Source: Blastococcus sp. CT_GayMR16 (GTDB lineage: Bacteria; Actinomycetota; Actinomycetes; Mycobacteriales; Geodermatophilaceae). From it: DNA of 64,000 bases. The DNA lies in contig NZ_SPQK01000006.1 of NCBI RefSeq assembly GCF_004570875.1, positions 1 through 64,000 of the forward strand, given 5' to 3'. This document shows positions 43,292 to 55,348 of this stretch, piece by piece. The notes below the pieces were generated by a model. The model was given only the letters and a program-made list of their open reading frames with translations. It was not told the origin of the DNA and did no database searches. Position numbers and translations under genes: made by a program. Positions within the stretch are counted from its first letter, which is position 1; each line of letters opens with the position of its first letter.

Positions 43292-43642
43292 ATGGAACTG
43301 ACCTGTCCCAAGTGTCACGGCACCATGCGCACCTACGAGCGCAACGGCGTCCACGTCGACCAGTGCTCGGAGTGCCGCGGGATCTTCCTCGACCGCGGCG
43401 AGCTCGACCGGCTCATCGACGCCGAGAACACCTGGCACGGGGATGTATCCCCGGCTCAGGCCGCGGCCCCGCCGTCCGCGGGCCACCAGCAGCAGCCGGC
43501 CGCCTCGCAGCAGGGGCTCAGCGGCGTCGTCGGTGAGGTTCTGCGTCAGGTGCAGGGGTCGAAGTCGAGCTCGCACCGTTCCTTGGAGTACGGGCAGCCG
43601 AGGCGGAAGAAGGAGTCCTTCCTCAGCGATCTGTTCGGCTGA
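43292..43642 (+). CDS. TFIIB-type zinc ribbon protein
   Basis: The 116-residue protein begins with a zf-TFIIB domain: 'LTCPKCHGTMRTYERNGVHVDQCSECRGIFLDRGELDRLI', in which the four Cys of CPKC and CSEC bind zinc and the rest follows the family closely. A Gln/Ala/Pro-rich linker and a basic C-terminus (RRKKESFLSDLFG) follow. The family is common in bacteria and has no established function. TACTGT at 43276-43281 ends ten bases before the ATG, suggesting a very short leader. The last 20 bases overlap the end of the convergent permease gene. Confidence 0.88.
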   Translation: MELTCPKCHGTMRTYERNGVHVDQCSECRGIFLDRGELDRLIDAENTWHGDVSPAQAAAPPSAGHQQQPAASQQGLSGVVGEVLRQVQGSKSSSHRSLEYGQPRRKKESFLSDLFG

Positions 43643-45104
43643 CGGCGGCGTCGGCTGCGCCCACGCGCGAGTGCCGGTAGCCGTAGACCGCGTACAGCAC
43701 GAGCCCGATGACCAGCCAGACGAGGAAACGCACCCACGTCTCGATGCTGAGGTTGGCCATCAGGTACACGCAGGCGACGGCGGAGAGGATCGGCACGACC
43801 GGCGAGAACGGGACCCGGAACGGGCGCGGCAGGTCCGGCCGGGTACGCCGCAGCACCGGCACCGCGGCCGACACCAGCACGAAAGCGAAGAGCGTGCCGA
43901 TGCTGACCAGGTTGGCCAGCTCCTCCAGCGGGACCAGGCTCGCCATCACCAGCACGACCGCGGCGAACAGCAGCGTCATGCGGACGGGGGTGCCGGTGCG
44001 CGGGCTGACCTTCGCCACCGACTGGGGGAGCAGCCCGTCCCGGCCCATCGCGAAACCGATCCGGGTCATCGTGACCAGGTCGACGAGGATCACCGACGTC
44101 AACCCGGCGACCGCGGCGATGGAGACCAGCGCCGATGCCCAGCCGAGCCCGACCTGGTCGAAGGCGTCGGCGATCGGGGCACCGGGATCGATGTCAGGGG
44201 TGTCGACCATCCCGACCAGGACGAACGAGACCCCGATGTAGAGGGCCGTGGCCAGGCCGAGCGTGCCGAGCAGGCCCAGCGGCAGGTCGCGCGCCGGGCG
44301 CTTGGTCTCCTCCGACAGGTTCGCGACCGCCTCGAAACCGGTGTAGGCGAAGAACACGACGGCAGCGGCGGTGAGCACGCCGCCGATGCCGAACACCGCC
44401 GGCTCGAGGCCCGCGACGGCCGAGATCAGCGGCTGGTCCCAGCCGCCGGCGCCCTCGCTGGGCCGGCCCGGCGGGATGAACGGCGTCAGGTTGGCGCCCC
44501 GGATGAACCAGGCACCGGCGACGATCACGAAGACGCAGACGGCGACCTTGACGATGACCAGGACGTTCGTGACGCGGGCGGACTCCCGGATGCCGAGGGC
44601 GGCCACCGCCGTCAGGACGACCACGATCAGCGCCGCGCCCACGTTGACCGTGGTCTCCTCCCCGAACAGGGACGTCGGCAGGTCGAGCAGATTGCCCACG
44701 TAGCCCGACCACCCGCGGGCCACGACGGCGGCGCCGAGCGCGAACTCCAGGAACAGGTCCCAGCCGATGATCCAGGCGATGAGCTCGCCGGCCGTGGCGT
44801 AGGCGTAGGAGTAGGCGCTGCCGGCGGTCGGCACGCTCGAGGCCAGCTCGGCGTAGCAGAGCGCCGCGAGCAGGGCCACGACCCCGGCGATCGCGAACGA
44901 GATCACCACCGCCGGCCCCGCCGTGTCCCGGGCTGCCACGCCGGTCAGCGTGAAGATGCCCGTCCCGATGACGATGCCGATCCCGAAGCCGACCAGGTGC
45001 CGGGCGCTGAGGTGCCGGCGCAGGTGACCGACCCCGTGCGACTCGCCCTCGCCGCTCGCGTCGGCCCCGATGTTCTCGACGGACTTCGTCCGGAACAGTT
45101 CCAC
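43623..45104 (-). CDS. APC family amino acid permease
   Basis: The 493-residue membrane protein has about 12 predicted helices, starting with 'HLVGFGIGIVIGTGIFTLTG', the conserved first-helix motif of APC transporters, and including 'VFFAYTGFEAVANLSEETKRPARDLPLG', typical of the cationic amino acid transporter (CAT/YfnA) branch. It probably imports amino acids by proton symport; specificity is not predictable. The GTG start at 45104 lies seven bases after TAGCGT on the minus strand (45115-45110), a leaderless arrangement. It converges with the zinc-ribbon gene by a 20-base overlap. Confidence 0.92.
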   Translation of the reverse strand: MELFRTKSVENIGADASGEGESHGVGHLRRHLSARHLVGFGIGIVIGTGIFTLTGVAARDTAGPAVVISFAIAGVVALLAALCYAELASSVPTAGSAYSYAYATAGELIAWIIGWDLFLEFALGAAVVARGWSGYVGNLLDLPTSLFGEETTVNVGAALIVVVLTAVAALGIRESARVTNVLVIVKVAVCVFVIVAGAWFIRGANLTPFIPPGRPSEGAGGWDQPLISAVAGLEPAVFGIGGVLTAAAVVFFAYTGFEAVANLSEETKRPARDLPLGLLGTLGLATALYIGVSFVLVGMVDTPDIDPGAPIADAFDQVGLGWASALVSIAAVAGLTSVILVDLVTMTRIGFAMGRDGLLPQSVAKVSPRTGTPVRMTLLFAAVVLVMASLVPLEELANLVSIGTLFAFVLVSAAVPVLRRTRPDLPRPFRVPFSPVVPILSAVACVYLMANLSIETWVRFLVWLVIGLVLYAVYGYRHSRVGAADAAVSRTDR

Positions 45105-45217: not shown

Positions 45218-46642
45218 ATGGCGATCGCCACCATCAACCCGGCGACCGGCGAGACGCTGAAGACCTACGAGCCGATCTCGGAGGAGGCGCTCGAGGAGAA
45301 GATCGCCCGCGCGGCGGCCGCCTGGGCGACGTACCGGCTGACGACGGCGGAGCAGCGCGTCGGCTGGCTGCGTGCCGCGGCCGACGTCCTGGACGCCGAC
45401 ACCGACGCGGTGGCCGAGCTGATGACCACCGAGATGGGCAAGACGCTCGCGTCGGCGAAGGCGGAGGTCGGCAAGTGCGCCAAGGCGCTCCGCTACTACG
45501 CCGAGCACGGTCCGGCGTTCCTCGAGCCCGAGACCAAGGACGCGGCGGCCGTCGGCGCCCAGCAGGCCTACGTCGTCCACCAGCCCCTGGGCGTGGTGCT
45601 CGCGATCATGCCCTGGAACTTCCCGCTCTGGCAGGCCATGCGGTTCGCCGCCCCGGCACTCATGGCCGGCAACGTCGGCCTGCTCAAGCACGCCAGCAAC
45701 GTGCCGCAGACCGCCCTCTACCTCGAGGAGCTCTTCCGCAAGGCCGGCTTCCCGGACGACGTCTTCCAGACCCTGCTGGTCGGCTCCGGCACGATCGAGC
45801 GGGTGCTGCGCGACGACCGGGTCGTGGCCGCCACGCTCACCGGGAGCGCCCCGGCCGGGCAGTCCGTGGCCTCGATCGCCGGCGACGCGCTGAAGCCGAC
45901 CGTCCTGGAGCTCGGCGGCAGCGACCCCTTCATCGTCATGCCGTCGGCGCACCTGGAGAAGGCGGCGGAGGTCGCCGTCACCGCGCGCAATCAGAACAAC
46001 GGGCAGAGCTGCATCGCCGCCAAGCGGTTCTTCGTGCACCGCGACGTCGCCGAGGAGTTCACCCGGCTGTTCGCGGAGAAGATCGCGGCGCTGACCATCG
46101 GCGACCCGATGGACCCCGACACCCAGGTCGGTCCGCTGGCGACCGAGTCCGGCCGGGAGGACGTCGAGAAGTACGTGGACGACGCCGTCGCGAAGGGCGC
46201 CACGGCGCTGGTCGGCGGGAAGCGGGTCGACCGGCCCGGCTGGTTCTACGAGCCGACGCTGCTGTCGGGCATCACGCCGGAGATGGACCTGTACTTCGAG
46301 GAGGTCTTCGGCCCGGTGGCGGCGCTGTTCACGGTCGACGGCCTGGACGAGGCGATCGAGATCGCCAACAGCCATCCGTACGGGCTCGGCGCCAATCTGT
46401 GGAGCGAGGACGAGGACGAACGAACCCGGTTCATCCGGGACGTCGCCGCGGGCATGGCCTTCGTCAACGGGATGGTGACCAGCCACCCGGAGCTGCCCTT
46501 CGGCGGCGTGAAGCAGAGCGGCTACGGCCGGGAGCTCACCGAGGTGGGCATGCGCGAGTTCATGAACGCCAAGACCGTGTGGATCGGGGCGCCGGGGAGC
46601 GAGCAGGCCGCCGGGGACACCGCGGGGTCCGCCTCGGAGTGA
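45218..46642 (+). CDS. Succinate-semialdehyde dehydrogenase-like aldehyde dehydrogenase
   Basis: The 474-residue enzyme begins 'ATINPATGETLKTYEPIS', usual for GabD-type enzymes, and has the catalytic elements 'VLELGGSDPFIVM' (Glu) and 'NNGQSCIAAKRFFVH' (Cys), with 'MPWNFPLWQAMRFAAPALMAGN' for cofactor binding. It probably oxidises succinate semialdehyde to succinate with NAD(P). Because of the nearby aromatic genes another semialdehyde is possible. ATG at 45218 is the only reasonable start; the 113-base gap upstream is shared with the divergent permease. Confidence 0.88.
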   Translation: MAIATINPATGETLKTYEPISEEALEEKIARAAAAWATYRLTTAEQRVGWLRAAADVLDADTDAVAELMTTEMGKTLASAKAEVGKCAKALRYYAEHGPAFLEPETKDAAAVGAQQAYVVHQPLGVVLAIMPWNFPLWQAMRFAAPALMAGNVGLLKHASNVPQTALYLEELFRKAGFPDDVFQTLLVGSGTIERVLRDDRVVAATLTGSAPAGQSVASIAGDALKPTVLELGGSDPFIVMPSAHLEKAAEVAVTARNQNNGQSCIAAKRFFVHRDVAEEFTRLFAEKIAALTIGDPMDPDTQVGPLATESGREDVEKYVDDAVAKGATALVGGKRVDRPGWFYEPTLLSGITPEMDLYFEEVFGPVAALFTVDGLDEAIEIANSHPYGLGANLWSEDEDERTRFIRDVAAGMAFVNGMVTSHPELPFGGVKQSGYGRELTEVGMREFMNAKTVWIGAPGSEQAAGDTAGSASE

Positions 46643-46699: not shown

Positions 46700-47053
46700 T
46701 CAGTGCAGGTGCCGTCGCCAGTCGGCCGGCACCCGGTCGCGCGGGCCCGGGGCCGGCTGATCGACGGGGTGGGCGGTCGGCGGGGCGAGCTCGGGCCCCT
46801 CGACGTCCCGCTCGGTGGTGAAGTCCCAGAACCAGCTCTCGCCCGGCTCGAAGCTGCGCATCACCGGGTGTCCCGCGGCGGCGGCGTGCGCCCGGGCGTG
46901 CTGACTCGGCGAGGAGTCGCAGCAGCCGATGTGCCCGCACTGCGCGCAGCGGCGCAGGTGGAACCACCAGCCGCCGGTGTCCTCGCAGTCCGCGCAACCG
47001 GTGCCGCTGGGGGGCGCCGACGGGTCGATTCCGGGCATCGCAGCAGCTGACAT
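46700..47053 (-). CDS. UBP-type zinc finger protein
   Basis: The 117-residue protein is mainly one zf-UBP (ubiquitin-hydrolase-like) zinc finger: 'TGCADCEDTGGWWFHLRRCAQCGHIGCCDSSPSQHARAHAAAAGHPVMRSFEPGESWFWD' contains the Cys and His ligands in family order (CxxC, CxxCGHIGCC, H...H). Bacteria have no ubiquitin system of this kind, yet such proteins occur beside response-regulator flavoproteins and histidine kinases, as here, on the other strand. A signalling or chaperone role with those partners is possible but unproven. ATG at 47053 is used; another lies five codons inside. Confidence 0.85.
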   Translation of the reverse strand: MSAAAMPGIDPSAPPSGTGCADCEDTGGWWFHLRRCAQCGHIGCCDSSPSQHARAHAAAAGHPVMRSFEPGESWFWDFTTERDVEGPELAPPTAHPVDQPAPGPRDRVPADWRRHLH

Positions 47054-47083
47054 CGCGCACCACCATCACAAGGGGAGAACGGC

Positions 47084-47530
47084 ATGGAACCTGGCTTCTA
47101 CGGTACGGACGGCACCGACCCCGAGGAAGCCTCCGGCGTCCTGGAGCCGGAGGACACCCTGGACGGCACCCCCGGCGTGCGCGACGTCCTGGACACCGGC
47201 TGGTCGCCGCCCGAGCGGCCGTGGGCGGTGAACGACTGGGGCACGACGGAGGCGGAGGAGTCGGCCGGCGAGAGCCTCGACGGCCGGCTGGCCCGCGAGC
47301 TGCCCGACGGCTCGCCGGACGAGGGCGACGGCCTCGGCGACAGCTCCGACACCGACGGCGAGCTGCTCGACGACGAGGTCGGTGACGAGCGGGCCGGCCG
47401 CCTGGTGGACGCCGACGGCGGCGGCACGACCGACAGCGACGACGAGCTGTGGGCCGAGGACGAGGGCATCGACGGCGCGGCCGCCTCGGCGGAGGAAGCG
47501 GCAGTGCACATCGTGCGCGAGCGCGACTAG
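47084..47530 (+). CDS. DUF5709 family acidic protein
   Basis: The 148-residue protein is very acidic (runs of Asp and Glu in almost every segment) and shows the DUF5709 signature 'LEPEDTLDG..GV.DVLDTGWSPPERP' followed by a repeat-like 'ESLDGRLARELPD' and a Glu/Asp/Gly-rich C-terminus. It is probably intrinsically disordered. The family is restricted to actinobacteria and has no known role. GGGGAGAA precedes the ATG at 47084. It is divergent from the UBP zinc-finger gene and 51 bases ahead of the REC-flavoprotein gene. Confidence 0.85.
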   Translation: MEPGFYGTDGTDPEEASGVLEPEDTLDGTPGVRDVLDTGWSPPERPWAVNDWGTTEAEESAGESLDGRLARELPDGSPDEGDGLGDSSDTDGELLDDEVGDERAGRLVDADGGGTTDSDDELWAEDEGIDGAAASAEEAAVHIVRERD

Positions 47531-47581
47531 CGTTGATGGTGGCCCAGCGTCGGGTCTCCGGAACTCTCGACAGGAGGCCGC

Positions 47582-49240
47582 ATGGGCAAGCCGGTCCTGC
47601 TCAGCGTGGACGACGACCCGGGGGTCTCGCGCGCGGTTGCGCGTGACCTGCGGCGCAGGTACGGCGAGGAGTTCCGCGTGCTGCGGGCCAGTTCCGGGGA
47701 CGAGGCGCTCGACGCCCTCCGCGAGCTCAAGCTCCGGGGCGACAGCGTCGCGGCGATGCTCGCCGACTACCGGATGCCGCAGATGAACGGCATCGACTTC
47801 CTCGAGCGCGCCATGGACCTGTTCCCGCGGGCGCGAAGGGCCCTGCTGACGGCCTACGCCGACACCGAGGCGGCCATCCAGGCGATCAACGTCGTCGACG
47901 TCGACTTCTACCTGCTCAAGCCCTGGGACCCGCCGGAGGAGAAGCTCTACCCGGTCGTGGACGCGATGATCGAGTCGTGGCGGGACAGCCACGACGGCGC
48001 GGTCGAGGAGGTCAAGATCATCGGGCACCGCTGGTCGGCGCCGTCGTTCCGCGCGCGCGACTTCCTGGCCCGCAACGCCGTCCCCTACCGCTGGTACAGC
48101 GTCGAGGAGCCGGAGGGAAAGCGGCTGCTGGAGGCCGCGGGCGCCGGGCCCGACGACGTCCCAGTCGTCGTCACCCCCGACGCCGTGGTCCTCCTCGCGC
48201 CGAGCGACGCCGAGCTGGCCGCGATGGCGGGACTCAACGCCGAGCCGCGCGAGGAGTTCTACGACCTGGTCGTGGTCGGCGGCGGGCCGGCCGGGCTGGG
48301 CGCGGCCGTCTACGGCGCGTCCGAGGGGCTGCGTACGGTGCTGGTCGAGCGGGAGGCGACCGGCGGACAGGCCGGCCAGAGCAGCCGGATCGAGAACTAC
48401 CTCGGCTTTCCCGATGGCGTCTCCGGCGGGCAGCTGGCCGAGCGGGCGCGGCGCCAGGCGGCGAAGTTCGGCGCCGAGATGCTGCTGACCCGCGACTGCG
48501 TGGCACTGGAGGCGCACGGCGCCAAGCGGGTGCTGCGCTTCGCCGACGGCAGCACGATCGCCGCGCACTCCGTCGTCCTCGCCACCGGCGTCTCCTACCG
48601 CAGCCTCGACGTCGACGGCGCCGACGGCCTGACCGGGCGGGGCGTCTACTACGGCTCGGCGATGACCGAGGCCGCCGAGTGCGCCGACCAGAAGGTCTTC
48701 ATCGTCGGCGGCGCGAACTCCGCAGGTCAGGCGGCGGTCTACTTCGCCCGGTACGCGGGGTCGGTGCACGTGCTGGTCCGCGGGCCCTCGCTGGAGGAGT
48801 CGATGTCGCACTACCTCATCGAGCAGCTCGCCGGCATCGAGAACGTGCACGTCCACACGTGCACCACCGTCGCCGAGGCGCACGGCACCGACCACCTCGA
48901 GCAGGTCACGCTGCTGGACGCGAAGACCGGCGATCGGACGACCTACCCGGCGAACCACCTGTTCGTCTTCATCGGCGGCGCGCCGCGCACGCACTGGCTC
49001 GACGGCGCCGTCGTCCGCGACGACCGGGGCTTCATCCCCACCGGACCGGGCCTGCTCGAGGACGGCCGCCGGCCGCACGGCTGGCCGCTCGACCGCGACC
49101 CGTACTTCCTCGAGTCCAGCCTTCCCGGCGTGTTCGTCGCCGGGGACGTGCGGGCCGAGTCGGTCAAGCGGGTGGCCTCGGCCGTGGGGGAGGGCGCCAT
49201 GGCGGTGACCCTCGTGCACCGCTACCTGGGGGAGAGATGA
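47582..49240 (+). CDS. Response regulator fused to a thioredoxin-reductase-like flavoprotein
   Basis: The 552-residue fusion has three parts. A REC domain (1-125) has phosphoacceptor Asp62 ('MLADYRMPQMNG'), Thr and Lys in 'ALLTAY' and 'LLKPWD'. A glutaredoxin-like segment (about 143-215) has SAPS at 152-155 where CxxC would be. A thioredoxin-reductase-like FAD/NADPH domain (225-552) has 'VVVGGGPAGLGAAVYGASEGL' and 'VFIVGGANSAGQAAVYFAR', but its CxxC is replaced by 'SAMTEAAEC'. The redox-active thiols are thus missing, and it is more likely an NAD(P)H-linked flavin sensor or output than a disulfide reductase. The stop overlaps the kinase gene by ATGA. Confidence 0.9.
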   Translation: MGKPVLLSVDDDPGVSRAVARDLRRRYGEEFRVLRASSGDEALDALRELKLRGDSVAAMLADYRMPQMNGIDFLERAMDLFPRARRALLTAYADTEAAIQAINVVDVDFYLLKPWDPPEEKLYPVVDAMIESWRDSHDGAVEEVKIIGHRWSAPSFRARDFLARNAVPYRWYSVEEPEGKRLLEAAGAGPDDVPVVVTPDAVVLLAPSDAELAAMAGLNAEPREEFYDLVVVGGGPAGLGAAVYGASEGLRTVLVEREATGGQAGQSSRIENYLGFPDGVSGGQLAERARRQAAKFGAEMLLTRDCVALEAHGAKRVLRFADGSTIAAHSVVLATGVSYRSLDVDGADGLTGRGVYYGSAMTEAAECADQKVFIVGGANSAGQAAVYFARYAGSVHVLVRGPSLEESMSHYLIEQLAGIENVHVHTCTTVAEAHGTDHLEQVTLLDAKTGDRTTYPANHLFVFIGGAPRTHWLDGAVVRDDRGFIPTGPGLLEDGRRPHGWPLDRDPYFLESSLPGVFVAGDVRAESVKRVASAVGEGAMAVTLVHRYLGER

Positions 49241-50673
49241 CGCAGACCCCGCCCCGGATGAGCCCCGCCGAGCTGCGCGAGCTCTTCCTCTTCGAGCACC
49301 TCGACGACGCGCAGCTCGAGTGGGTCTCCGGCAACGGTGACGTCATCGAGTGCCCCGCCGGGTCGGACGTGTCGGTGGAGGGGGAGCCCGCGGAGTGTTT
49401 CTTCGTCCTGCTCGACGGGACGCTCAGCATGGTGCGGACGATCGGCGGCACGGAGGTCGAGACCGTCCGCAGCTCGGACCGCGGCGTCTACTCCGGAGCG
49501 GTCCAGTTCTACTTCGGCGACCGGCTCGAGCAGCTCTACCCCGCGACCGTCCGCGCGGTCACCGACTGCCGGTTCCTCGCCCTGCCGGCCCAGCCGTTCG
49601 CCGAGGTGTTCCGCCGGTGGTACCCGATGGCCGTGCACCTCCTGGAGGGCCTGTTCGTCGGCCAGCGCAACGTCGCCGAGGTGGTCGCGCAGCGGGAACG
49701 GCTGCTGGCGCTCGGCAAGCTGACCGCCGGGCTCACCCACGAGCTGAACAACCCGGCGGCCGCGGCCGCCCGCGCCACGGCGTCGCTGCGCGACCGGTTC
49801 GCCGGCATGCGGCACAAGCTCGCGATGCTCGCCGACGGCAAGCTCGACGGCCAGGTGCTCCAGTCGCTCACGGTGCTCCAGGAGGAGTTCGTGTCCCGGG
49901 TCGGGAGCGCCGGCGACCTTCCCGCCCTGGAGCGGTCGGACCGTGAGGACCAGCTCGGCGACTGGCTCGAGGAACGCGACGTGACCCAGCCGTGGGAGCT
50001 GGCCGGGGTTTTCGTCGCGGCGGGCCTGGCGGCCGACGACCTCGAGCGGGTCGCCGACGCCGTCGCGCCGTCCTTCCTGGAGCCGGCCCTGCGCTGGCTG
50101 GCGTACACCGTCGAGACCGAGACCCTGCTGGCCGAGATCGCCGACAGCACCGGCCGGATCTCGACGCTCGTCGACGCCGCCAAGCAGTACTCGCAGATGG
50201 ACCGCACCCCGCACCAGCCGACCGACCTGCACGTCGGTCTCGACGCGACGCTGGTGATGCTCAGCGCCAAGGTCCCGTCGGGGGTCACCGTGGTAAAGGA
50301 GTACGACCGCAGCCTGCCGCAGGTGCCCGCCTACGCCGGCGAGCTCAACCAGGTGTGGACCAACCTGATCGTCAACGCGCTCGACGCCATGGCCGGGCAG
50401 GGCACGCTGACCCTGCGCACGGCCAGGGACGGCGACTGCGCGCTGGTCGAGATCGCCGACACCGGGCCCGGCATTCCCGAGGAGCTGCGCCGCCGCGTGT
50501 TCGAGCCGTTCTTCACCACCAAGCCCGTCGGCCAGGGGACAGGTCTCGGGCTCGACGTCTCGTTCCGGATCGTGGTCAAGCGGCACGGCGGCGACCTGCG
50601 GGTCACCTCGACGCCGGGCGACACCCGCTTCCAGGTGCTGCTCCCGCTGACCGAGCCGGCGGCGCCGGCGTGA
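49237..50673 (+). CDS. Histidine kinase with cyclic-nucleotide-binding-type sensor domain
   Basis: The 478-residue protein begins with a CRP/cNMP-type sensor domain (about 10-130; 'VSVEGEPAECFFVLLDGTLSMVR'), then a kinase core with phosphoacceptor His168 in 'LGKLTAGLTHELNNPAAAA', N-box 'NQVWTNLIVNALDAM', G1 'DTGPGIPEEL' and G2 'GTGLGLDVS'. No membrane segment is seen, so it is cytoplasmic. It is co-translated with the REC-flavoprotein (ATGA) and likely phosphorylates its REC domain; the pair recurs as neighbours in other bacteria. The sensor lacks an obvious cAMP-binding phosphate cassette, so the ligand is uncertain. Confidence 0.9.
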   Translation: MTQTPPRMSPAELRELFLFEHLDDAQLEWVSGNGDVIECPAGSDVSVEGEPAECFFVLLDGTLSMVRTIGGTEVETVRSSDRGVYSGAVQFYFGDRLEQLYPATVRAVTDCRFLALPAQPFAEVFRRWYPMAVHLLEGLFVGQRNVAEVVAQRERLLALGKLTAGLTHELNNPAAAAARATASLRDRFAGMRHKLAMLADGKLDGQVLQSLTVLQEEFVSRVGSAGDLPALERSDREDQLGDWLEERDVTQPWELAGVFVAAGLAADDLERVADAVAPSFLEPALRWLAYTVETETLLAEIADSTGRISTLVDAAKQYSQMDRTPHQPTDLHVGLDATLVMLSAKVPSGVTVVKEYDRSLPQVPAYAGELNQVWTNLIVNALDAMAGQGTLTLRTARDGDCALVEIADTGPGIPEELRRRVFEPFFTTKPVGQGTGLGLDVSFRIVVKRHGGDLRVTSTPGDTRFQVLLPLTEPAAPA

Positions 50674-50990
50674 CCGAGCTGCCCCCGGAGGTGGCCCGGC
50701 TGCTCGAGGCGACCAACACCGAGGACCGGGCCGCGTTCCTCGACGCCTTCACCGACGACGGCGCCGTCGACGACTGGGGACGACGGTTCGCCGGCCGCGA
50801 CCGCATCGCCGAGTGGGACGCCGGGGAGAACATCGGCGTGCACAGCCGCATCGAGGCGACGTCGGTGCGGCGGACCGGCGACACCGTGGAGTTCGGCGTC
50901 CAGGTGAGCGGGGACGGCTACAACGGCGGCGGGACGTTCACCGCGGAACTCCGGGACGGCAAGGTCGCGCTGCTGCAGATCCGCGGCTGA
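50670..50990 (+). CDS. SnoaL-like / NTF2-fold small protein
   Basis: The 106-residue protein fits the NTF2/SnoaL-like cone fold: 'VARLLEATNTEDRAAFLDAFTDDGAVDDWGRRFAGRDRIAEW' followed by four beta strands ending 'GGGTFTAELRDGKVALLQIRG'. Members are ligand-binding pockets or small isomerases; no catalytic residues stand out. The GTG start overlaps the kinase stop (GTGA), so it belongs to the signalling operon and might bind a ligand for it. That is inference. Confidence 0.78.
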   Translation: MTELPPEVARLLEATNTEDRAAFLDAFTDDGAVDDWGRRFAGRDRIAEWDAGENIGVHSRIEATSVRRTGDTVEFGVQVSGDGYNGGGTFTAELRDGKVALLQIRG

Positions 50991-50996
50991 CGGACA

Positions 50997-51836
50997 GTGG
51001 AGGCCGTGTTCGACGTCGACTGGATGGGTCTGCTCACCCGCGAGGTGCTCCGGGAGCGGGCCGCGGACCTGATCGCCGAGTCCTGCGCCTGGGCGGTCGG
51101 CATGTCCGACCAGCCCCACTACCTACGGACGGCCGGGCGGATCGTCGCCACCGGCACGACCGTGGGGGAGCGGGCCGCGAAGGACCTGTCGCTCGGCGAC
51201 GAGGAGGACGGCCGGCTCGATCTCGGTGACGCCCGGCCGGGCAGCTTCCAGGACGCGCTCAACGCCGTGGGCGGCGACGGCGTCCTGCAGGCCCACCGGT
51301 TCGACGAGGAGGTGCTGCACCCCTTCGTGCACGAGACGTGCGTCCGCGCCGCCGAGCGGGCCCGCCGCACGCGGCCCGACGCCTGGGCGGAGCTGGCCGA
51401 CGACGTCGGGGAGGACGCCGGCGACCTGGCCGGCGTCGTCCGCGGCGGGGGCTGGGAGGCGCCGCTGCGGATCGACGCCGAGCATCTCGTGCTCGCCGCG
51501 CTGGGCGCCGTCCCGCTGATCGAGGTGGAGGCCGAGGGGCTGCCGCTGTCGCTGGTGCGCGCCGCGGAGGCGACCACCCGTGCCGCGACCGCACCGGCCG
51601 GGCCGCCCGCCCCCGACACCGATCTCGCGGGGTCGCTGTTCCTCGCCGAGGCCGCGCTGACCGCGACCGGGGCGCCGGTGCCGGTCGGCCCGGACGCCGC
51701 CGAGCGGTTGCTCGAGGAGCTGCTCGCCCACGGGCTGGAGCCCGACGAGGTGGTCGCCGTGCTGCCGCATCTCCCGGTGCAGCCGGAGACGGCCGACACC
51801 GTCGCCGCGATCATCCGGGCCGCCGGCATCGGCTGA
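50997..51836 (+). CDS. Hypothetical protein of the REC-flavoprotein operon
   Basis: I do not recognise this 279-residue protein. It is acidic, Ala/Leu/Glu-rich and mostly helical, without signal peptide or membrane segment. Segments such as 'LQAHRFDEEVLHPFVHETCVRAAERARR' and 'DAAERLLEELLAHGLEPDEVVAVLPHLP' suggest helical bundles. Several His and one Cys occur in the first half. GTG at 50997 is six bases after the SnoaL-like gene; GTG at 51006 or ATG at 51024 are alternatives. It is probably the last gene of the signalling operon and converges on prfC. Confidence 0.65.
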   Translation: MEAVFDVDWMGLLTREVLRERAADLIAESCAWAVGMSDQPHYLRTAGRIVATGTTVGERAAKDLSLGDEEDGRLDLGDARPGSFQDALNAVGGDGVLQAHRFDEEVLHPFVHETCVRAAERARRTRPDAWAELADDVGEDAGDLAGVVRGGGWEAPLRIDAEHLVLAALGAVPLIEVEAEGLPLSLVRAAEATTRAATAPAGPPAPDTDLAGSLFLAEAALTATGAPVPVGPDAAERLLEELLAHGLEPDEVVAVLPHLPVQPETADTVAAIIRAAGIG

Positions 51837-51840
51837 TCCC

Positions 51841-53475
51841 TCAGAGCTGGGCGGCGACCAGGCTCTCCAGGGTCAGGTCCGGGTTGTTGTCCTTGAACAC
51901 CCGCAGGCCCCACTTGTCGCTGAAGACCGCGATCAGCTCACCGTTGGACCGCTGCAGCACCTCCGCGCCGCGGGCGGTCGCGACCTTCGGGGCCGAGGCC
52001 TCGTCGGTGCGCAGGGCCAGGGAGTACGGCAGCCGGTCCAGCTCGATGGGCGCGTTGAACTCGTGCTCCATGCGGTGGACCGCGACCTCGAACTGCATCG
52101 GTCCCACCACCGCCAGCACGGGCGCCTGCTCCCCCCGGCGGTCCGAGCGCAGCACCTGGACGACGCCCTCGGAGTCCAGCTGCTCGATCCCGCGGCGGAA
52201 CTGCTTGTGCTTGGCGGTGTCCTTGCCGCGGCAGACCGCGAAGTGCTCCGGCGCGAACGTGGTGAGCGGCGGGAACGTCACTGGGCGCTCGGCGTAGAGC
52301 GTGTCGCCCACCCCGAGGGCGGCGGCGTTCACCAGCCCGACGACGTCGCCGGGGTAGGCGCGGTCGATGCTCTCCCGCTCCCGGCCGAACACGTGCTGGG
52401 CGTACTTGGTGGCGAACGGCCGGCCGGTGCCCGCGTGCGTGACGACCATGCCGCGCTCGAAGACCCCGGAGCAGATGCGGATGAACGCCAGCCGGTCGCG
52501 GTGCGCGGTGTCCATGCCCGCCTGCACCTTGAACACGAAGGCGCTGAACGGGTCGGTCAGGGCGCGCGTGCCCCCGTCGGCGTCCGGCTGGGCGCCCGGC
52601 GGGGGAGCGAGACCGACCAGGGTGTCCAGCAGTGCCCCGACACCGAAGTTGGACACCGCCGAGGCGAACAGCACCGGCGTCGTGACGCCGTCCAGGAACA
52701 GCGACTGGTCGTGCTCGCCGCTGGTCTCGGCCAGCAGCGCCACCTCCTCGACCGCCTGCTGCCAGGCGTCGCCCTCGCGCTCGGCCGCGGCGTCGGCCGA
52801 CAGGGTCTCCTCCGGCGCGATCGTGGCGCCGCCGGCGGTGCGGGTGAACCGGCGGTACGTGCCGTCGGAGCGATCGAGCACGCCGCGGAAGTCGCCGGCG
52901 ATCCCGACCGGCCAGGTGAGCGGGGTCGGCGTCAGTCCGGTGCGGTCCTGGATCTCGTCCATGAGCTCGAGGGCGTCCTTGCCCGGGCGGTCCCACTTGT
53001 TGACGACGGTCAGTACCGGGATGCCGCGGTGCCGGCAGACCGCGAAGAGCTTCATCGTCTGGGCTTCCAGGCCCTTGGCGGCGTCGATCAGCATCACCGC
53101 GGCGTCGACGGCGGTGAGGACGCGGTAGGTGTCCTCGGAGAAGTCGGCGTGGCCCGGGGTGTCCAGCAGGTTGATGACGGCCTTGTCCTCACCGGGGCCG
53201 TACTCGAACTGGAGCGCCGCCGACGTGATGGAGATGCCGCGGTCGCGCTCCATGTCCATCCAGTCGGACACGGTGCCGCGTCGCCCGGCCTTGCCGTGGA
53301 CGGCACCGGCCTGGCCGATCACCCGGGCGTGCAGGGCGAGCGCCTCGGTCAGCGTCGACTTGCCGGCGTCGGGATGGCTGATGACGGCGAAGGTGCGGCG
53401 CCGGGCGGCCTGTCGGACGACGTCCTTCGCGCTGGTGCCGGGGGTCGCCGTCTCGACGGAAGGGGCTGCGCTCAC
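51841..53475 (-). CDS. prfC: Peptide chain release factor 3
   Basis: The 544-residue translational GTPase shows the P-loop 'ISHPDAGKSTLTEAL', G3 'LLDTPGHADFSEDT' and G4 'TVVNKWDRPG'. It has the RF3-specific 'MDMERDRGISITSAALQFEY' switch region and the C-terminal 'FEVAVHRMEHEFNAPIELDRLPY' domain. It recycles RF1 and RF2 from the ribosome after termination. Length is near the usual 520-545. It stands alone, with the next gene ending 28 bases upstream on the same strand. Confidence 0.97.
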   Translation of the reverse strand: MSAAPSVETATPGTSAKDVVRQAARRRTFAVISHPDAGKSTLTEALALHARVIGQAGAVHGKAGRRGTVSDWMDMERDRGISITSAALQFEYGPGEDKAVINLLDTPGHADFSEDTYRVLTAVDAAVMLIDAAKGLEAQTMKLFAVCRHRGIPVLTVVNKWDRPGKDALELMDEIQDRTGLTPTPLTWPVGIAGDFRGVLDRSDGTYRRFTRTAGGATIAPEETLSADAAAEREGDAWQQAVEEVALLAETSGEHDQSLFLDGVTTPVLFASAVSNFGVGALLDTLVGLAPPPGAQPDADGGTRALTDPFSAFVFKVQAGMDTAHRDRLAFIRICSGVFERGMVVTHAGTGRPFATKYAQHVFGRERESIDRAYPGDVVGLVNAAALGVGDTLYAERPVTFPPLTTFAPEHFAVCRGKDTAKHKQFRRGIEQLDSEGVVQVLRSDRRGEQAPVLAVVGPMQFEVAVHRMEHEFNAPIELDRLPYSLALRTDEASAPKVATARGAEVLQRSNGELIAVFSDKWGLRVFKDNNPDLTLESLVAAQL

Positions 53476-53503: not shown

Positions 53504-55348
53504 TCACTCCGCCGACGTGCGCAACCGCCGGTGAGCCGCCATCCGCACGGGGGCGTTGACCGCGCCGTAGCCGTCGTAACCGCCGAGCCGCTGCACGACC
53601 TCGAAGAACACGCGCGACCCGAGCACCTCGGTGAACAGCTGCAGGTAACCCCCCTGCCCGTCCTCGTCGTAGAAGAGGCCGCACTCGCGCATCGCGTCCA
53701 GGAGATCCGCGTCCAGGTCCAGCCGGGCCTCGAGGTCGTCGTGGTAGTTCACCGGGACGGCGAGCAGCGGCGCGCCCGCCGCGCGCAGGGCCCGGGCGGT
53801 GGCGACGAGGTCCGAGGTGACGAAGGCGATGTGCTGCGGCGCCGGGACGCCGGGCGCCCACTCGCCCCGGCGGAGCAGCGATACGCTGAGCGCCAGCCGG
53901 ACGGCGCGGCCCGGGCCGGTCACGGCGCGGCTGCGCACCAGCCCGAAGGGCGCCGCGTACTCGGTGACGCTCTCCGGCTCCAGCCCCAGCACCGAGCGGT
54001 AGAACAGCCCCGCCCCGTCGAAGGAGTCGAACGGCTGGGTGAGCGCGACGTGGTCGACCGCGGTGATCCCCGCCCCCGATCCGGCGTCGGTCCCGGTGGG
54101 CAGGAAGTCGGCCGGCCAGCCGCCGGGCCCGGTGCGGGCGAAGAACACCTGGGTCCCGTCGGGGGCCTCGACCGCGGACAGGTCGGCCTCGGTGGCCCCT
54201 CGGGTGCGGGGGAGGACCGGTGCCCGGAAGGCCTCGGCCCGCGCCGCCGAACGGCCGGGGTCCGCGCTCTCCAGGGCGAGCGCGGCCACCTCGGCGTCCC
54301 CGGCGCCCGCCGGCCGGACGACGGAGGCATTGAGCAGCACCCGCGCCGCGCCCTGCTCCCACAGCTGCACCGGCTTGGAGCGGTGCTGGCCGGTGTGGGC
54401 GAAGCCGAGCGCGCCGAGGGCACCGGCGAGCTCCGGGCCGGACACCCCGTCGACGGCCAGCTCGGTGAAGGCGTAGCCGCTCAGCGCCGGCGCCGGCGGC
54501 GGTGCCGTCGTCCCCAGGTCGGGACGGCGCAGCGCCAGCGCCTCCTCCAGCCAGAGCAGCGACCGCATGGCGTCCACCGCGGCCCGGCCCGGCTCGGCCT
54601 GCCGGAAGACGTCGTTGAAGACCTCGAGCGACAGCGGGCCGGCGTAGCCGGCGGCGAGGACGTGCGCGAGGAAGCCCGCCAGGTCGAGGGCGCCCTGGCC
54701 GGGGAACAGCCGGTGGTGGCGGCTCCACTGGAGGACGTCCATGTCCAGCTGCGGGGCGTCGGCCAGCTGGAGGAAGAAGAGCTTCTCGGCGGGGACGGCG
54801 GCGAAGCCCGCGGGGTCCCCGTTGCGCGAGAGCACGTGGAAGCTGTCCAGGCAGAGGCCGAGAGCGGGGGAGTCCGCCCGCCGGACGGCGTCCCAGGACG
54901 CCTCCCAGGTGGCGACGTGCCGCCCCCAGGCCAGCGCCTCGTAGGCGATGCGCAGTCCCCGTTCGCCGGCCCGCGCGGCCGCCGCAGCCAGCTGTCCCGC
55001 GAGCCGGTCGGGATCGTCGACCGCGTCGGGCGCGACCGATGAGCAGACCAGCACGGTGTCGGTGCCGAGCTCGGCCATGACGTCGAACTTCCGGTCGGCC
55101 CGCCGGAGATTGCGCTCGAACCGCTCCGCATCGGTGGAGTCCAGGTCCCGGAAGGGCTGGTAGAGGTCGATCGACAGGCCGAGGTCCGCGCAGCGGGCGG
55201 CCAGCTCCTTCGGCGCCCACGGGGAGGCGATCAGGTCGGGCTCGAAGATCTCGATGCCGTCGAACCCGGCACCGGACGCGGCGGCGAGCTTGTCCTCCAG
55301 CGTGCCCGACAGGCACACCGTGGCGATGGTCCGCTGCACGTCAGACAC
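53504..55348 (-). CDS. quiC: 3-dehydroshikimate dehydratase fused to an HPPD-like domain
   Basis: The 614-residue two-domain protein matches QuiC1/QsuB enzymes. The N-terminal sugar-isomerase TIM barrel (1-270) holds the metal ligands Glu137 ('AYEALAWG'), Asp168 ('CLDSFHVL'), Gln194 ('FLQLADAP') and Glu242 ('LEVFND'), each three residues later than in Pseudomonas QuiC1. The C-terminal VOC domain resembles 4-hydroxyphenylpyruvate dioxygenase, with His in 'VDHVALTQ', His in 'QHIAFVT' and Glu in 'FFEVVQRLGGY'. It converts 3-dehydroshikimate to protocatechuate, linking shikimate and quinate to the pca genes 25 kb away. It overlaps the shikimate dehydrogenase gene by eight bases. Confidence 0.92.
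   Translation of the reverse strand: MSDVQRTIATVCLSGTLEDKLAAASGAGFDGIEIFEPDLIASPWAPKELAARCADLGLSIDLYQPFRDLDSTDAERFERNLRRADRKFDVMAELGTDTVLVCSSVAPDAVDDPDRLAGQLAAAAARAGERGLRIAYEALAWGRHVATWEASWDAVRRADSPALGLCLDSFHVLSRNGDPAGFAAVPAEKLFFLQLADAPQLDMDVLQWSRHHRLFPGQGALDLAGFLAHVLAAGYAGPLSLEVFNDVFRQAEPGRAAVDAMRSLLWLEEALALRRPDLGTTAPPPAPALSGYAFTELAVDGVSGPELAGALGALGFAHTGQHRSKPVQLWEQGAARVLLNASVVRPAGAGDAEVAALALESADPGRSAARAEAFRAPVLPRTRGATEADLSAVEAPDGTQVFFARTGPGGWPADFLPTGTDAGSGAGITAVDHVALTQPFDSFDGAGLFYRSVLGLEPESVTEYAAPFGLVRSRAVTGPGRAVRLALSVSLLRRGEWAPGVPAPQHIAFVTSDLVATARALRAAGAPLLAVPVNYHDDLEARLDLDADLLDAMRECGLFYDEDGQGGYLQLFTEVLGSRVFFEVVQRLGGYDGYGAVNAPVRMAAHRRLRTSAE

Follow-up and report, generated by a model that had tools for sequence, protein, structure and literature searches.

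A conserved flavoprotein–histidine kinase pair with a recurrent zf-UBP partner in Blastococcus sp. CT_GayMR16 and its relatives: a putative two-component system with a flavin output free of redox cysteine pairs

Response regulators with a redox-enzyme rather than a DNA-binding output are, to our knowledge, few and little studied, and the UBP zinc finger is known mainly from ubiquitin biology. A census of archaeal two-component systems names a fusion of a receiver domain (REC) with thioredoxin reductase (TrxR) for Heimdallarchaeota, described as a 'Mycobacterium-like combination', and the passages of that census on REC-TrxR are silent on its function, on a kinase partner, on UBP and on missing cysteines (PMC5847659). 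The same domain fusion as in these response regulators (PMC5847659) occurs in a flavoprotein that is encoded, close to a histidine kinase and a small zf-UBP protein, in a stretch of 64,000 nucleotides from Blastococcus sp. CT_GayMR16 (contig NZ_SPQK01000006.1, positions 1 to 64,000), hereafter the window. Searches of the open-licence literature yielded no account of the function of the REC-TrxR fusion, of its UBP link or of the missing cysteines, which fits the remark in a first-pass annotation of the window that similar neighbours are found in other bacteria while no pathway has been described. The analysis below suggests that the flavoprotein, the kinase and, in many genomes, the zf-UBP protein make up a widely kept two-component system with a non-DNA-binding output, of which, as far as these searches show, only the domain fusion had been named. 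We lean, with somewhat more confidence than doubt, towards reading it as a system with a phosphorylation-gated flavin output devoid of cysteine pairs and with zf-UBP as a partner. The genes and domains concerned are the following (positions in the window):

46700..47053, minus strand: small zf-UBP protein, 117 residues (PF02148, 53.9 bits; sole match in its genome)
47582..49240, plus strand: flavoprotein, 552 residues, made of REC, a cysteine-less thioredoxin-fold domain and a TrxR-like part, with predicted phospho-acceptor Asp62 (PF00072 and PF07992, Pyr_redox_2)
48005..48229, plus strand: middle domain of the flavoprotein, residues ~142-216, with glutaredoxin/thioredoxin-type fold order, S152/S155 and P194 (from model and alignment)
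48257..49237, plus strand: predicted TrxR-like module for flavin adenine dinucleotide (FAD) and nicotinamide cofactor (NAD(P)H), without CxxC, residues ~226-552 (TIGR01292, 210.8 bits)
49237..50673, plus strand: histidine kinase with CRP-like N-terminal domain, 478 residues, with predicted phosphorylation site His168 (PF00027 and PF02518)

The start of the kinase gene overlaps the stop of the flavoprotein gene as ATGA, as judged by coordinates and translations. In order to place this arrangement, the flavoprotein was compared with 296 genomes of the phylum, 70 of which gave a match at E up to 1e-60, and 80 regions were cut around the matches. A set from the window's own family comprised 33 flavoprotein regions, to which 7 further regions chosen around UBP genes were added, and the best 80 of 589 confirmed loci were taken from named organisms. 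All locus sets were chosen by similarity to the window's flavoprotein. In 79 of the 80 named loci, a kinase of this type begins downstream of the flavoprotein, that is, its kinase core begins within 900 bases; in the eightieth (L192) the kinase lies further off. Where both genes were called, a 4-base overlap joins flavoprotein and kinase at 39 of 56 junctions, with start codons chosen by script near the aligned start, so that single cases may be off. Since relatives widely keep the gene order and 39 of these junctions keep the overlap, the arrangement is more than chance, and on this comparison of loci flavoprotein and kinase are a conserved pair and the core of the unit. The first-pass annotation had proposed conserved linkage as a check, and linkage was indeed found for the kinase/REC-flavoprotein pair and for zf-UBP as a linked family.

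The receiver pocket of the window's flavoprotein is complete (D10-12, D62, T90 and K113). Across the family, the window's protein included, the full set of acid pair, Asp62, Thr90 and Lys113 is retained by all 68 kinase-linked flavoproteins and by none of 25 unlinked ones; 5 of the 98 flavoproteins, two of them with an intact receiver, were left out of this comparison due to contig ends within 1.5 kb. Receiver and kinase thus appear to be kept or lost together, an event that seems to have happened roughly once. In the window's genome itself, searches at E up to 1e-60 and 1e-20 gave three such flavoproteins and two kinases, respectively. The two flavoproteins with an intact REC, namely that of the window and a further copy with its own kinase (L032, G000:C34:13382-15016), each adjoin one of the two kinases, and the remaining copy (L033, G000:C8:100321-101958) has a degraded receiver, with no kinase found beside it. 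At loci L086, L087, L088, L089 and L092, two or three kinases of this type stand behind one flavoprotein, several of them with 4-base overlaps, and a kinase relay is a possible explanation of these cases.

The flavoprotein scores 210.8 bits on TIGR01292 versus a cut-off of 343.45, and the genome's own TrxB, encoded elsewhere, scores 395.4 bits and carries CATC. No CxxC was found in residues 141-552 of any of 98 family members, the window's included, nor in the thioredoxin-fold and TrxR parts of the 81 proteins of an earlier set that also holds forms with a cyclic-nucleotide-binding (cNMP) domain. The motif was likewise missing from the redox site in nine of nine proteins from plasmid records, spanning four phyla, one of which has CECC elsewhere. 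The redox-site position reads Y-G-S/A and then E-A, with Tyr357 in 98/98, and the cysteines of the genome's TrxB align to S359 and T362. The first-pass annotation had called the output thioredoxin-reductase-like; as chemistry this does not hold, the cysteine pair being absent family-wide, although the NAD(P)H oxidation that it suggested remains a conceivable, putative activity. In an AlphaFold2 model (mean predicted local distance difference test 90.0, predicted template modelling score 0.75), residues 144-216 follow the strand and helix order of glutaredoxin. Here P194 (97/98) occupies the cis-proline position of thioredoxin folds, and S152 (83/98) and S/T155 (84/98) the site expected to carry CxxC. 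Neither CxxC nor CxxS was seen at this site, which mostly reads SxxS or SxxT, and the middle domain of the window's protein gave no Pfam match of glutaredoxin or thioredoxin type.

Residues G233, G235, P236, G238, G521 and D522, within the predicted FAD module, are invariant in 69 flavoprotein sequences. When the model was compared by Foldseek with Lactococcus TrxR, the entry titled as flavin-reducing (FR) form gave a template modelling score of 0.94 and that titled as flavin-oxidizing (FO) form 0.62, both normalised to target length. In the FR form the NADPH faces the flavin. An FR-like geometry, as seen in this ligand-free model, fits a module that would no longer need to swing cysteines to the flavin. 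The same module was found preceded by a REC (with kinase), a cNMP domain or a degraded REC, and this exchange of N-terminal parts suggests that they serve as input and the flavin module as output. Public records name these proteins FAD-dependent oxidoreductase, and the cNMP form 'cyclic nucleotide-binding domain-containing thioredoxin-disulfide reductase'; the latter name misleads, since the catalytic cysteines are lacking in every member examined. Among solved structures, the 56 that match the flavoprotein at E up to 1e-10 cover the TrxR-like or the REC parts and none covers its full length.

The kinase keeps its H, N, G1 and G2 boxes in an alignment of 65 kinases, in which H168, N171, N172, N380, K429 and G434/G436/G438 are invariant, N376 is found in 62 and D408 in 64; its HisKA match, with 19.3 bits versus a gathering score of 26.9, is below the Pfam cut-off. 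Asp62 of the receiver and His168 of the kinase are the very residues that the first-pass annotation had named. Its suggestion of a cyclic-nucleotide signal fared less well. The fold of the CRP-like domain is recognised by PF00027, yet the glutamate and arginine that we take to be the cAMP/cGMP residues of the phosphate-binding cassette read alanine and tyrosine in 24/24 own-family kinases that share the window's locus type, and just 6 of the 65 kinases retain both (L037, L038, L039, L041, L042 and L181, the last from the window's genus and beside the counterpart of the second, paralogous flavoprotein system). As the cassette columns adjoin alignment gaps, the replacing residues are less sure than the loss of the glutamate and arginine. 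With such a degraded cassette, a cyclic-nucleotide input to the kinase looks unlikely in the window's clade and was disfavoured. In a related kinase (L043), a receiver replaces the CRP-like domain. The kinase matches listed among solved structures (60 of 273) cover only kinase-core or cNMP parts. In a model of the kinase, the two long helices of the dimerisation region are separated by a helical insertion (49849-50061, kinase residues ~205-275); E237 within it is present in 65/65 kinases, and no Pfam family was reported there.

A UBP gene was found within 7 kb in 36 of the 80 named loci and in 22 of the 33 own-family regions. Its position varies: many close relatives of the window have it divergently upstream, in Streptomyces, Nocardia and some others it comes after the kinase gene, and in L042 and L064 it precedes the flavoprotein gene. 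A 4-base overlap is seen at nine of 11 kinase-UBP junctions and at both UBP-flavoprotein junctions. The kinase frame of L037 runs into a UBP domain, with HATPase_c and zf-UBP both above their cut-offs in one frame of 555 residues. On a quick tree of the 98 flavoproteins, with support from the Shimodaira-Hasegawa-like approximate likelihood ratio test only, UBP adjacency needs at least 10 changes, and for the label kinase-plus-UBP at least 6 changes are forced by well-supported branches. The 296 genomes yielded 91 UBP matches, spread over 68 genomes, and 22 of these matches (in 21 genomes) lie no more than 9 kb from such a flavoprotein on the same contig, a lower bound as many contigs are short. 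Both families occur together in 48 genomes, of 68 and 70, respectively, among the 296 (Fisher p 1.8e-22, a value that ignores phylogeny). These data make zf-UBP, as far as gene neighbourhoods can tell, a recurrent though not obligatory third partner of the flavoprotein-kinase core. At L076 (9360-9693) the UBP match is in two pieces in different frames, and the gene or the assembly may be broken.

The zf-UBP protein itself does not look like a ubiquitin reader. In eukaryotic ubiquitin-tail-binding ZnF-UBP domains, the arginine of the CGR motif holds the terminal Gly-Gly. In 43 sequences gathered by similarity to the window's UBP, and hence not a sample of all bacterial UBP proteins, C44-C45-D46 takes the place of this motif in 43/43, so that none of them has the arginine. 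The predicted zinc ligands C20, C23, C36, C39, C44, C45, H52 and H56 are present in 43/43 and H62 in 42/43. The closest solved structure is 2IDA (E 1e-20), followed by USP13 (E 0.0015). In 2IDA the CCD motif is aligned, and the EPGE of the window's protein reads DPPE; the entry is named only 'Hypothetical protein' and offers no function to transfer. Two frames that read as Na+/H+ exchangers (L186:5143-7368 and L187:4003-5865, the latter confirmed by Pfam) end in a UBP domain. The window-type UBP looks like a portable docking or regulatory domain and not like a reader of ubiquitin.

A translated search of plasmid records extended the picture to other phyla, with the flavoprotein in 117 records, including Rhizobium, Paraburkholderia, Deinococcus and Nostoc, and UBP in 85; nine regions were opened and checked by tblastn. 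Kinases of this type stand close on each side of the REC-flavoprotein in Deinococcus aetherius and Caballeronia, and directly downstream of it in Gloeothece and Tsukamurella, where in the latter UBP is the next gene. In Nostoc a transposase gene and a channel gene separate the two, and the kinase lies at a distance of about 3 kb. Neither kinase nor UBP was found near the flavoprotein in a Deinococcus record with the cNMP form. UBP adjoins a flavoprotein of this family in two rhizobia (Rhizobium), forms a divergent pair with it in Burkholderia and lies beside it in Rhodococcus as well; in one Rhizobium, genes annotated as an ATP-binding protein and two response regulators precede the pair. The link to the kinase extends over four phyla, the kinase form being found in Actinomycetota, Deinococcota, Betaproteobacteria and cyanobacteria, and the UBP link is seen in two, Actinomycetota and Pseudomonadota (Alpha- and Betaproteobacteria). 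A search of viral contigs for the flavoprotein gave 5 pattern matches, none of them a relative.

The gene order, the junctions, the intact phosphotransfer residues, the missing cysteine pairs and the recurrence of UBP can be read from the sequences, and from them we infer phosphotransfer, FAD and NAD(P)H binding, the direction of signalling and a role for UBP along the following lines. The kinase would autophosphorylate at His168, its CRP-like domain seemingly being unable to bind cyclic nucleotide in the classical way, and the phosphate would pass to Asp62 in the receiver of the translationally coupled flavoprotein. Phosphorylation would then alter the state of the fused TrxR-fold flavin module without a redox cysteine pair. 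NAD(P)H would reduce the FAD directly, in flavin-reducing geometry, and the electrons or the flavin state would be handed on to a non-thiol acceptor or read by a partner. The zf-UBP protein may be the docking or target partner of the kinase-flavoprotein complex. A bolder view, which we put forward only tentatively and hold to be rather doubtful, is that a TrxR fold emptied of its cysteine pairs has become a widespread phosphorylation-gated NAD(P)H/flavin switch that would act through a UBP zinc finger, and not through thioredoxin or DNA, and would accept pluggable inputs (kinase plus REC, cNMP or degraded REC).

Several observations weigh against the two-component reading with a gated flavin output. 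A lone Cys367 (48680-48682), five residues past the site of the second lost cysteine and shared by 57 of 68 kinase-linked flavoproteins and 2 of 30 others, could carry some thiol chemistry. HRRxxxR, whose arginines we presume to contact the 2'-phosphate of NADPH, reads VRGxxLE in the window's flavoprotein, so that only the first arginine is kept and two of three are replaced; among the 98 members, the first is found in 97, the second in 4 (glycine in 76) and the third in 11. The association of REC and kinase takes 2 changes on the tree, 1 of them on well-supported branches, which is close to a single event, and its co-variation was rejected as an independent statistical test for that reason. 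As for UBP, none was found near 44 of the 80 named loci (some of them truncated by contig ends), within 2.6 kb at 33 of the 68 kinase-linked loci of the other set, or by tblastn in the Deinococcus, Caballeronia, Nostoc and Gloeothece regions, and it is therefore not obligatory in cis. Moreover, 13 of the 91 UBP matches share a contig with the flavoprotein at a distance of over 150 kb, and the contigs of 56 carry no flavoprotein match. These absences, together with UBP domains fused to Na+/H+ exchangers and UBP genes far from any such flavoprotein, would suit a system of kinase and flavoprotein only, with UBP often next to it but separate in function. We regard this as improbable, since UBP recurs on different sides of the pair with the repeated label changes on well-supported branches given above, and since overlapping genes, one kinase-UBP fusion and linkage in Alpha- and Betaproteobacteria speak for a closer relation.

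The main rival to the favoured two-component reading reverses the flow: the flavoprotein would be the sensor, in that NAD(P)H, oxygen or quinones set the redox state of its flavin. This state would act on the receiver and thereby make the kinase work either as kinase or as phosphatase, with other response regulators or UBP as the true outputs. In line with such a sensor, no catalytic cysteine pair is found, the CRP-like domain looks ligand-dead in the window's clade, two or three kinases follow one flavoprotein at some loci (L086-L089, L092), and kinases flank it in Deinococcus and Caballeronia; the response regulator genes annotated ahead of one Rhizobium UBP-flavoprotein pair would fit it, too. 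However, REC, degraded REC and cNMP can replace one another at the N-terminus of the flavoprotein, as expected of an input, and the receiver is degraded where no kinase is adjacent, and we consider the reversed flow unlikely. Because sister proteins with the same flavin module carry a cNMP domain instead of REC, we take REC to be the input module and the flavin module probably to be the output. The reading suggested by public names such as that of the cNMP form, in which the flavoprotein is a genuine thioredoxin or disulfide reductase that a two-component system controls, is hardly credible. The fold and sequence of the protein come closest to thioredoxin reductases and the lone Cys367 is common, but the lack of CxxC in all 98 and all 81 proteins and at the site in nine of nine, the score far below the TIGR01292 cut-off and a real TrxB with CATC in the same genome already contradict it; a thioredoxin reductase under kinase control was rejected with the 98/98.

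The remaining genes of the locus are the following:

47084..47530, plus strand: DUF5709 protein, 148 residues (PF18970, 69.7 bits); a genus-level neighbour, not a core part
50670..50990, plus strand: SnoaL-like (SnoaL_2) protein with GTG start (27.1 bits versus a cut-off of 27, marginal); not a core part
50997..51836, plus strand: 279-residue protein without family match; present nearby in some genomes of the window's family, not a core part

All six genes of the first-pass annotation are present in the region it gave, and it was also right on both junctions: coordinates and translations confirm the ATGA as well as the overlap of the GTG start of the SnoaL-like gene with the kinase stop as GTGA. 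The start codons of the zf-UBP and DUF5709 genes lie on opposite strands and diverge, as it had described, with 30 bases between them; a look for repeats near this divergent start gave nothing of note. Its inclusion of the DUF5709, SnoaL-like and 279-residue proteins in the unit was not upheld, as each was found in 0/80 named loci and 0/80 phylum regions, and in 6/33, 0/33 and 7/33 own-family regions, respectively; they are local neighbours only and were rejected as parts of the system. The 279-residue protein gave no match in a Pfam and NCBIfam search at E up to 0.01. Although it overlaps the kinase stop, the SnoaL-like gene was seen at no other examined locus, and is possibly a recent insertion into the coupled operon. 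All-against-all clustering of 194 regions, the window included, showed no other neighbour comparable to kinase or UBP among the 30 largest clusters listed, the largest other gene-like clusters being a short-chain dehydrogenase (21 regions) and an aldehyde dehydrogenase (16); the gene finder used was home-made and also picked antisense frames, and a weak link could be missed. A formaldehyde/mycothiol link hinted at by one Tsukamurella record was dropped, close copies being found only in the two other Tsukamurella loci. The locus is flanked by genes for an amino acid permease (43623-45104, minus strand) and an aldehyde dehydrogenase (45218-46642, plus strand). Beyond it lie a release factor RF3-type GTPase (51841-53475) and a 614-residue protein (53504-55348, minus strand), residues 21-263 of which match a xylose-isomerase-like TIM barrel, the rest being without Pfam match at E up to 1e-5.

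If phosphorylation does gate flavin reduction, two-component signalling would be linked directly to NAD(P)H balance, and the bacterial UBP zinc finger gains a context and concrete candidate partners. Among known systems, TrxB (TIGR01292) shares with the flavoprotein the TrxR fold with its FAD and NAD(P)H-type Rossmann parts, at 23-31% identity among the Foldseek matches listed; unlike TrxB, the flavoprotein lacks CxxC and two of the three HRRxxxR arginines and is fused to REC. AhpF resembles it in having a thioredoxin-fold part ahead of a TrxR-like module, and Foldseek aligned 582-598 columns of full-length AhpF at a root-mean-square deviation of 19-28 A, too loose a fit for a single rigid body. 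Both parts of AhpF use cysteine pairs, whereas the flavoprotein has neither pair and carries REC at its N-terminus. Ferredoxin-NADP reductases of TrxR fold do without CxxC, and the flavoprotein matches several of them in sequence (5xhu, 3lzw and 8c16). Their match is much weaker than that of TrxB, and the flavoprotein differs from them by its additional REC and thioredoxin-fold domains.

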